A stretch of DNA of 64,000 nt, from NCBI RefSeq assembly GCF_003721435.2, contig NZ_CP054585.1:744001-808000 (forward strand). The letters run 5' to 3'. Of this stretch, positions 48,836-51,622 are shown piece by piece. Position 1 is the first letter of the stretch, and each line of letters begins with the position of its first letter. The notes beneath the pieces are model-generated. The model saw nothing but the letters and a program-made list of their open reading frames with translations. It was not told the origin of the DNA and searched no databases. This DNA comes from Halorubrum sp. CBA1229. Lineage in GTDB: Archaea > Halobacteriota > Halobacteria > Halobacteriales > Haloferacaceae. A program made the position numbers and the translations under genes.

Positions 48836-49051
48836 CAGTAATCGCTCTTTCGGCCGATACGTCACCGCCGGGGTCGGTCGGATCGGCCTCTACCCGACCA
48901 TCTGACGCCTCCGCTAAAACTCCTGTGCCTGATGCGGTGGCGGCGGCCGAACGAGTCCCGAGGCGACGAGTTCCGACGCCGATCGATCCGAGCGGCACGC
49001 TCTCGGCTCGCAGTGGAGTTCGCGGCAGAAGTAGTCCTCACGTCGTTCGGA

Positions 49052-49078
49052 GAATAGTCCCGGGCGGATTCGAACCGC
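49052..49078. repeat. 27-bp duplicate of the tRNA-Gln 3' end
   Basis: Positions 49052-49078 repeat 49151-49177 exactly. They cover the T-arm, acceptor 3' strand and adjacent flank of the tRNA gene, 99 bp away. Homology continues imperfectly outward (CACGTCGTTCG against CACTTCGTTCG). This is how attachment-site scars of tRNA-targeted integrases look. The 48836-49153 interval otherwise holds no gene. Confidence 0.8.
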
Positions 49079-49153
49079 GAAGACTCGAATCCTCTCGTCT
49101 TCTGGGCTCGAATCCTCGTTGTGACTATTCGTGCTCACTTCGTTCGCACGGAA

Positions 49154-49304
49154 TAGTCCCGGGCGGATTCGAACCGCCGTCAATGGCTGACTTCGGGCAT
49201 CCGACGGCCGTCTCCGGCGAACCGGACTACGATCGCGTCTCAACCGCGGACGCCGACGGATTCCCTCCAAAGGCCATTATGATTGGCCACTACACCACGG
49301 GACT
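49154..49304 (-). tRNA. tRNA-Gln(TTG) with 78-nt intron
   Basis: On the minus strand the 5' acceptor AGTCCCG (49304-49298) pairs with CGGGACT (49161-49155), discriminator A at 49154. The T-stem is GGCGG/CCGCC around TTCGAAT. The anticodon stem is ATGGC (49277-49273) with GCCAT (49187-49183), anticodon TTG at 49270-49268. An intron of about 78 nt (49266-49189) interrupts it one base after the anticodon (37/38), the canonical archaeal place. Haloferax tRNA-Gln(UUG) is also intron-bearing but with a shorter intron, from memory. No CCA is encoded. Confidence 0.88.
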
Positions 49305-50317: not shown

Positions 50318-51622
50318 TCAGTCCCGGCCGTCGTCGCCCGTGGGTTCGTCGCGGGTTTCGGGGTCATCCGGCGCGTCGGATCCGTCCGTCGCATCGTCGA
50401 TGCCCACCGCCTCCTCGACCGTCGTGAGGTCGTCGACGGCGGACTCCTCGTCTCCGTCGGCGGTAGGAGCCTCGCCGGCTCCGGCGGCGGTCGCCTCGTC
50501 GCCCTCGACGGCGGCCCCCTCGGCGCCCCCGTCGCCGGACCCGACCGCCGGCGGCGACGGCGGCCGGTACGTGTAGACGAACTCGCCGGCCACGGCGTGG
50601 TACGCGCCCGTCTCTGGGTCCTCCACGACGCCGGTGTCGTTGTCGATGGCGAAGTCGACGAGGTCGCGGAGGCTCTCCGCCTCCGCCTCGGGGCGCTCGT
50701 GGACGGACGCCGGGAGGCGGAACGTCGTGATCCACTCCGCGAACTCGGACCGGTCGTCGCTGTACGAGAGGTAGTCGCGCTCGGCGGGCGTGAGCGCGAG
50801 GTCGCGCTTCCGGCGGACGTACGCCAGCGCCCCGCCGCCGAGGAGTCCGAGCACGAGGAGCATCGGGCCGCCGATCGACCGGAGCGGCCCGTAGCTGCGC
50901 TCGACGGTCACGGTCTCCGTGCGCTCGGAGGTGTCCGACTGGACGCCGGGGTCGGAGACCGTGTAGGTGTCGCCGCCGTGGTCGATCCCAAGCTCGACCG
51001 TCCGGGCGTACGAGGTCGACTCGCCGTTGATCGTCCCCTCCACCGTCACGTCGGTGACGACGAATATCTCCGTCTCGCCCGGGGACGCGCCCAGCTCCTC
51101 CTCGATCGCGGCCGCGGTCGCCGAGGCCGCCGAGCTGTTGAGCGCGAACGACGACGCGGCGGTCTCGCCGGGCTCGACGCCCGAGACCGTCTCCGACGCC
51201 AGCGTCTCGCGCTCGCTCCAGTAGACGGTGCCCCCGTCCTCGCCGACGTTGCGGACGACGAGGACGGAGTCGAACTGCACGTCGACGTTGGCCGCGGACG
51301 AGGCCGCGTAGCTCGTCTCGACGTCGACGTCGAGCTCGGGGGCGATCCGCGTGAAGTACGTGCTGCGGCCGTCGAGGACCGTCCCGGTCTCGAACACCGA
51401 GTTCGGCTCGGTCACCTCGGCGGAGTGGTTGTACGCCGTCTCGACCGTGAACGAGGAGACGGTCTGCTGGCGGGTCTCGGTGCCGGGGTCGACGTGCGTC
51501 GTGTAGACGAGCCCGCCGCCGACGGCGGCCGCGATCAGGCAGACGGCGATAATCACGGCGAACTGTGCGTCGAGTAGCGCCCGGAGTCGGAGTCGGGTCT
51601 CGTCGGGGGATGAAGAGCTCAT
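50318..51622 (-). CDS. DUF5305 family membrane protein
   Basis: The 434-residue protein has an N-terminal TM segment (FAVIIAVCLIAAAVGGGLVY), an extracellular beta-rich domain with VDPGTETRQQTVSSFTVETAYNHSAEVTEPNSVF, a second TM segment near 260-280 (SIGGPMLLVLGLLGGGALAYVRR) and a cytoplasmic region ending in an acidic, Ala-rich tail. This layout is DUF5305, found next to signal peptidase genes in archaea. It starts 4 bp after the signal-peptidase stop, so the two form an operon. Confidence 0.88.
   Translation of the reverse strand: MSSSSPDETRLRLRALLDAQFAVIIAVCLIAAAVGGGLVYTTHVDPGTETRQQTVSSFTVETAYNHSAEVTEPNSVFETGTVLDGRSTYFTRIAPELDVDVETSYAASSAANVDVQFDSVLVVRNVGEDGGTVYWSERETLASETVSGVEPGETAASSFALNSSAASATAAAIEEELGASPGETEIFVVTDVTVEGTINGESTSYARTVELGIDHGGDTYTVSDPGVQSDTSERTETVTVERSYGPLRSIGGPMLLVLGLLGGGALAYVRRKRDLALTPAERDYLSYSDDRSEFAEWITTFRLPASVHERPEAEAESLRDLVDFAIDNDTGVVEDPETGAYHAVAGEFVYTYRPPSPPAVGSGDGGAEGAAVEGDEATAAGAGEAPTADGDEESAVDDLTTVEEAVGIDDATDGSDAPDDPETRDEPTGDDGRD

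Follow-up and report, generated by a model that had tools for sequence, protein, structure and literature searches.

The stretch of DNA analyzed here, hereafter the window, comprises 64,000 nucleotides of the genome of Halorubrum sp. CBA1229 (contig NZ_CP054585.1, positions 744,001 to 808,000), and positions below are counted from its first letter. On its minus strand lies a gene for tRNA-Gln(UUG), recovered as a match to the Rfam family RF00005 and missed by ARAGORN. The 3' end of this gene, 27 bp at 49151-49177, recurs downstream at 49052-49078 with 100% identity and a spacing of 99 bp, as an earlier note on this DNA had claimed, and the two repeats flank 72 nt of structured non-coding DNA. 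The weaker similarity that the same note had mentioned outside the repeat corresponds to a motif, GAACGA(A/C)GTGAG, present at both 49134-49145 and 49037-49048. The earlier note was silent on a further element, an imperfect inverted copy of the tRNA end between the two direct copies. The features of the locus are as follows:

49154-49304, minus strand: tRNA-Gln(UUG) gene (Rfam RF00005, 47.3 bits)
about 49189-49266, minus strand: putative tRNA-Gln intron of 78 nt at the canonical 37/38 position, its ends placed from the cloverleaf
49154-49175, minus strand: proximal 22-nt 3' end of the tRNA itself, T-loop through discriminator base (from the sequence)
49130-49150, minus strand: H1 hairpin CGTGC-GAACGAAGTGA-GCACG whose stem is closed by GA...GA (from the fold, with comparable stems in other tRNA-Gln units)
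49104-49129, minus strand: imperfect copy, in inverted orientation, of the tRNA 3' end (from folds, with inverted arms at other tRNAs)
49077-49103, minus strand: H2 hairpin AGAAGAC-GAGAGGATTCGA-GTCTTC-GC (from covariation over 28 tRNA-Gln units)
49055-49076, minus strand: distal direct copy of the tRNA 3' end, GGTTCGAATCCGCCCGGGACTA, which with its flanks makes up the 27-bp repeat at 49052-49078
49035-49051, minus strand: second H1-like hairpin TCC-GAACGACGTGA-GGA beyond the distal copy (from the sequence and the motif match at 49037-49048)

We refer to this arrangement downstream of a tRNA as a unit; that of the window is single rather than tandem, and its inverted arm is predicted by folding to be able to pair with either the distal copy or the tRNA itself. 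The tRNA-Gln intron is variable within Halorubrum: of 36 loci, 17 are intron-less, with the 3' core starting 51 nt after the 5' end, and the distance is 91, 108 or 128-131 nt for the remaining ones. One assembly (G012) contains two different tRNA-Gln loci on separate contigs, one with and one without an intron, which may reflect either a mixed assembly or a true second gene. ARAGORN also called two tRNA-Gly genes in the window, at 2264-2350 and 50421-50510, both of which look doubtful because they are absent from the Rfam matches of the window; a whole-genome tRNA search lists neither of them, and this search also misses the tRNA-Gln.

In the genome of the window strain (G000), 18 of 47 tRNA loci repeat their own 22-nt 3' end within 350 nt downstream with at most one mismatch, and the removal of one match that is a neighboring complete tRNA-Asp leaves 17 of 46. 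The test set was obtained by excluding nine of the 55 Rfam tRNA matches, all in one cluster (C1:314068-316061), and adding the tRNA-Gln. When 3' ends of foreign tRNAs were used as a control, even three mismatches were attained in only 1 of 2040 swaps, while the own 3' end was found upstream at 1 of 46 loci and the own 5' end downstream at 1 of 47. Given 17 of 46 own ends against a single foreign one, the recurrence is not a product of chance. The excluded cluster packs nine tRNA matches of 28.9-61.3 bits into 2 kb and may belong to a mobile element or virus; eight of the nine tRNAs were examined, and none has a trailer copy. At four tRNAs of G000 without a 22-nt copy (C1:1753723, 2007238, 447518 and 1273060), inspection by eye pointed to a shorter copy of the acceptor end, roughly 13-16 nt, after a GC-rich hairpin, which is perhaps a reduced form of the same module.

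Comparable figures emerged from three further genomes, from each of which the 30 best-scoring tRNA matches (out of 46, 49 and 45, respectively) were taken. After exclusion of complete neighboring tRNAs, own-end copies with up to three mismatches follow 14 of 30 tRNAs in another Halorubrum (G026), 7 of 30 in a Haloferax (G059) and 13 of 30 in a Natrialba (G060), as against 2 of 804, 3 of 808 and 0 of 802 swaps. Across the four genomes, units are present at 51 of 137 tRNA loci, and the direct copy is that of the 3' end of the very tRNA that it follows. In a wider sample, consisting of 69 tRNAs (18 and 51) picked among the best-scoring of 1282 matches outside G000, own-end copies follow 6 of the 18 tRNAs taken from four other genomes of the order, and none of the 51 tRNAs from 25 genomes of the phylum outside the order, where the best candidate never fell below 8 mismatches.

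The tRNA-Gln region itself was matched in all 59 genomes searched, and downstream stretches were available from 57 of them (all except G035 and G051). Within 150 nt of the tRNA-Gln, its 3' end was detected again in 20 of 35 Halorubrum genomes at up to five edits, and in 16 of 35 at up to two mismatches; in other genera of the order, a unit follows the tRNA-Gln in 9 of 22 genomes at up to five edits, a further, doubtful case (G054) being left uncounted. When named genomes were scanned for pairs of exact copies separated by 62-92 nt, 38 stretches were recovered, all under haloarchaeal names, including Halorubrum, Haloarcula, Haloferax, Natrialba, Natrinema, Natronomonas, Halogeometricum, Halobaculum, Halolamina and Halopiger. 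The recurrence at tRNA-Gln in relatives and these named stretches together indicate that the duplication is no private event of the window strain. Turnover of the individual units is high. When near-identical tRNAs of G000 and G026 were paired, which gave 31 pairings, some of them between paralogues, units were present in both members of 7 pairings, in one member of 12 and in neither of 12, and paired units are 48 to 94% identical. Such a high turnover implies that no given unit is essential.

Most units show the same order, namely tRNA, H1, inverted arm, H2 and direct copy, with a distance of 89-152 nt between the proximal and distal 3' ends in 43 of 51. Alignment of each tRNA with its copy over the 51 units, using a 22-nt window that was selected for identity and flanks that were not, gives 96-100% identity at positions -21 to -3 and 90 and 96% at -2 and -1, with a fall at the upstream edge from 82% at -22 to 41% at -23; past the tRNA end the identity is 70, 66, 49 and 45%, compared to 46, 53, 32 and 32% in swaps. 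What is copied is hence mainly the part of the mature tRNA that begins at the T-loop and runs through the discriminator base. A retrocopy of the mature tRNA was considered and rejected, since CCA follows 0 of 51 copies. An inverted 13-nt arm with up to two mismatches to the own tRNA is found in 20 of 51 units as against 60 of 644 swaps, and at least three mismatches in 13 nt separate arm and tRNA in the other 31; accordingly, the inverted arm is own-like but imperfect. Several genera have related H2 sequences, which are found behind more than one kind of tRNA. A search of G000 and G026 with two H2 patterns, one of which has no match in G000, gave 18 exact matches, and all 18 lie within 420 nt downstream of a tRNA; among inexact matches, 6 of 12 with one mismatch and 3 of 4 with three mismatches lie away from tRNAs. 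The short motif GARCGAAGYGAG is likewise enriched behind tRNAs (14 of 42 sites on C1, with 0.2 expected) and also occurs elsewhere.

The earlier note had read the 99-bp duplication as resembling an integration scar. Spelled out here, such a reading would make the distal copy an attR, which remained after a tyrosine-integrase element inserted at the T-loop of the tRNA was lost by internal deletion. The copied segment has just the boundaries that an attP restoring the tRNA would require, and the suggestion that the locus serves as an attachment site in relatives was borne out: tRNA-Gln(UUG) is a real attachment site in two of them. In G021, about 17 kb separate the tRNA-Gln from a distal repeat, with a phage-integrase match 0.9 kb inside, and in G034 about 24 kb do so, with an integrase match 0.5 kb inside the distal repeat. 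The 27-bp repeat as the att sequence of such islands fared less well, as the repeat of the G021 island comprises 13 nt of tRNA sequence (14 bp if the following base is counted) and that of the G034 island 18 nt (20 bp with the next two bases), against 22-27 in the window; these two are the only islands known. Moreover, the G021 genome carries the island at the tRNA and a complete unit beyond the distal repeat, a side-by-side placement that already weakens the scar reading. In the window, the direct repeat of the tRNA 3' end is present with its 27 identical bp, but no integrase or other mobile gene was found between or beside the copies, and the nearest integrase match (PF00589) of the genome lies about 260 kb from the tRNA-Gln. 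The window unit had no match in 72,556 plasmid and 50,697 phage records, where it might have appeared as an attP, nor had the two H2 patterns any exact match in viral contigs. Independent losses of integrated elements would not be expected to leave units at 51 of 137 loci with such regular spacing, own inverted arms and shared hairpins, nor to favor the transcribed strand in folding, as described below. With about 100-bp units at many tRNAs, each copying its own tRNA, the scar interpretation is rejected for this copy, and we regard it as quite improbable. The earlier note had also held that conservation of the duplication throughout the genus without islands would tell against it; the duplication does recur through the genus, if not in every species, but islands do occur.

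A scan of viral contigs with the 22-nt end of tRNA-Gln recovered two contigs with a complete intron-less tRNA-Gln and no unit in the 300 nt inspected; in both, the tRNA is followed by nearly identical sequence, CTCAAAATTCYTACATAGTCC. Thirteen ORFs near the tRNA-Gln of genomes with island-like signatures were inspected by eye.

A related possibility is that the copies are decoys or spare attachment sites, kept by hosts so that integrases land downstream of the gene. The copy does include the tRNA part of both island repeats, and in Halorubrum sp. Atlit-26R a signature resembling an island end adjoins the distal copy, without a distal repeat in the 6 kb read. This case, which the scar reading could equally claim, suggests that the copies may have consequences at the DNA level. 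In all, nine island-like signatures adjoin the tRNA's own end and one adjoins a unit copy, a count that leaves out a further match after the unit of Haloferax denitrificans; seven genomes with such signatures (G017, G018, G028, G029, G032, G040 and G049) lack a phage-integrase match within 200 kb on the same contig, and their signatures are unproven as islands. The predominance of the tRNA's own end and the G021 island, seated at the tRNA with the unit beyond it, are contrary to a decoy function, which moreover has no need of hairpins or a strand bias; we deem it very improbable.

The direct-inverted-direct order of tRNA ends is typical of tandem-inversion duplication events. The units might on these grounds be neutral by-products, generated by template switching at small palindromes and turned over by recombination between the direct copies, with no function. 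Besides the order of the parts, the polymorphic presence between the two Halorubrum genomes speaks for such an origin, as do perfect tandem arrays: 13 of the 51 unit-bearing loci have multiple copies, and the tRNA-Lys of G026 is followed by 4.2 identical copies of 111 bp. Tandem duplication, which the earlier note had offered as an alternative, can in this light be retained as a mode of expansion. It also fits a minority of 10 of 51 units in which tRNA and copy share at least 8 of the 10 bases past their ends, as against 0.7% of swaps. In most units, by contrast, similarity drops sharply at the discriminator base, and a functionless by-product would account neither for related H2 hairpins at different tRNAs in several genera nor for the covariation of H1 and H2 and the better folding of the sense strand. 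A neutral origin thus appears unlikely, if less far-fetched than the preceding proposals.

Covariation in the stems and strand-biased folding point to an RNA. For H2, covariation was measured in 28 of the 59 tRNA-Gln units, drawn from several genera and chosen by their H2 letter pattern: 96.4% of the cells are paired as against 89.3% after shuffling, and 22 cells show double changes as against 7.9, with 0 of 500 shuffles reaching either value (these counts, like the fold and strand counts below, are raw and uncorrected for relatedness). Two of the five H2 measures do not stand convincingly above shuffles, namely pairs changed on both sides (257 of 500) and further pair types (48 of 500). For H1, perfect 5-bp stems occur in 28 of 59 units versus a mean of 4.3 after permutation of the arms. 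The non-Watson-Crick pairs in 84 H1 stems comprise 21 G-T, 16 C-C, 11 A-G, 8 C-T, 5 T-T, 5 G-G, 3 A-A and 3 A-C. The sense strand is the better folder in 49 of the 58 tRNA-Gln units compared; among the units of the four genomes it is so in 42 of 51, as against only 31 of 84 trailers that lack a unit. With the distal copy removed, the advantage is retained in 37 of 59 and 40 of 51, respectively. The mean fold z is -3.8 for trailers with units and -1.2 for those without, and the window unit alone folds at -45.7 kcal/mol with a z of -5.3. The excess of G-T over A-C pairs, along with the strand bias, is expected of an RNA and not of a recombination site, though the 16 C-C mismatches count against an RNA. 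The idea that the units serve chiefly as a DNA cruciform or recombination site was set aside on account of the bias of folding toward the sense strand.

Hence, we consider it likely that the repeat in the window is one instance of a haloarchaeal RNA trailer module that imitates the end of its own tRNA. From the sequence evidence, a precursor trailer that mimics the tRNA end, akin to E. coli RttR, is probably the best reading. The module consists of the tRNA, H1, an inverted copy of the tRNA's own end from T-loop to discriminator, H2 and a direct copy, at times in tandem, and we infer that it is transcribed within the pre-tRNA and acts as RNA. Either 3' end could serve the inverted arm as a pairing partner in such a precursor, and the distal copy would compete for the 5' acceptor strand of the tRNA, so that the full precursor would have two alternative acceptor stems and with them two potential tRNase Z sites. 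The predicted fold of the window precursor pairs the 5' acceptor strand with the distal copy; of 51 predicted precursors, 42 show this pairing at P>0.5, and 6 show pairing with the own 3' strand at that level, in ViennaRNA folds that leave out tRNA tertiary structure, modification, salt and co-transcriptional folding. The two acceptor stems thus compete on paper only, real tRNAs being folded while they are made and with tertiary contacts.

As to what such a trailer might do, we can offer only a tentative answer: its likeliest use would be to shape precursor folding and 3' processing, and a stable RNA mimicking the tRNA end might be released, as with RttR, to occupy enzymes of tRNA 3' ends or other partners. 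Recombination between the direct copies could alter copy number. A still bolder and rather doubtful generalization would be that about a third of the tRNA genes of haloarchaea come with self-mimicking trailers, composed of one antisense and one additional sense copy of the tRNA end, which yield bistable precursors and control maturation in cis through a modular and renewable device, the class being present in one archaeal order and, independently, as RttR in E. coli. On this bistable reading, the 5' acceptor strand would close on either its own or the distal 3' strand. If transcribed, the module would be a common structured element attached to tRNA genes. In genome annotation, a repeated tRNA 3' end next to a tRNA of a haloarchaeon should not, on its own, be taken as evidence of an integrated element.

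Among known systems, the integrative elements of haloarchaea that target tRNA genes, such as the islands of Haloquadratum and the proviruses of the HF1 group (PMC3119063, PMC7230728), likewise have a direct repeat of the tRNA 3' end, but place kilobases of mobile DNA and an integrase between the repeats, in contrast to the 72 nt of structured non-coding DNA in the window. The genome paper on Haloferax gibbonsii LR2-5 from 2021 mentions partial tRNAs or tRNA remnants directly adjacent to full copies (PMC7921747); its passages on these give no architecture, inverted arm, generality or function. Beyond the term 'partial tRNA', the module is described nowhere in the main-text portions covered of the open-licence literature (including PMC9897764, PMC12306157, PMC8371274, PMC7714728, PMC6104027 and PMC4983044).

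Like the units, REP elements and BIMEs are small intergenic hairpins with tandem amplification. The units differ from them in containing the neighboring tRNA's own sequence, and rather than being dispersed through intergenic regions, the exact matches of the two H2 patterns in the two genomes searched lie behind tRNAs alone, with some inexact ones elsewhere. A general REP-type repeat was set aside on these exact matches.

The closest counterpart in layout is found in E. coli, where the tRNA-Tyr gene tyrV is followed by 178-bp tandem repeats that contain the final 19 nt of the tRNA in three exact copies. Folding of the first rttR unit predicts a stem between an inverted GGGGAAGGAT arm and the copy, which encloses a structured head. 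Although Rfam includes an RtT model, RF00005 is the sole family passing the gathering threshold in the window. As in E. coli, the window has a same-strand unit immediately behind the tRNA, with a copy of this tRNA's 3' end to finish it; pairing of the inverted arm with the copy is predicted for both the window and the E. coli units, and is imperfect in many others; and tandem arrays, absent at the window's single unit, are seen in relatives and at other tRNAs. The two differ in that the E. coli copy includes the encoded CCA, in that rttR overlaps a small annotated CDS, tpr, and in that a single locus was looked at in E. coli while about a third of the tRNA loci examined are involved in haloarchaea. 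Accordingly, the haloarchaeal module resembles RttR in layout, with tandem units directly after a tRNA and tRNA ends in direct-inverted-direct order, a likeness that we do not put forward as homology. The obscure RttR of E. coli thereby acquires many counterparts in layout in genetically tractable archaea, in which its function becomes testable.
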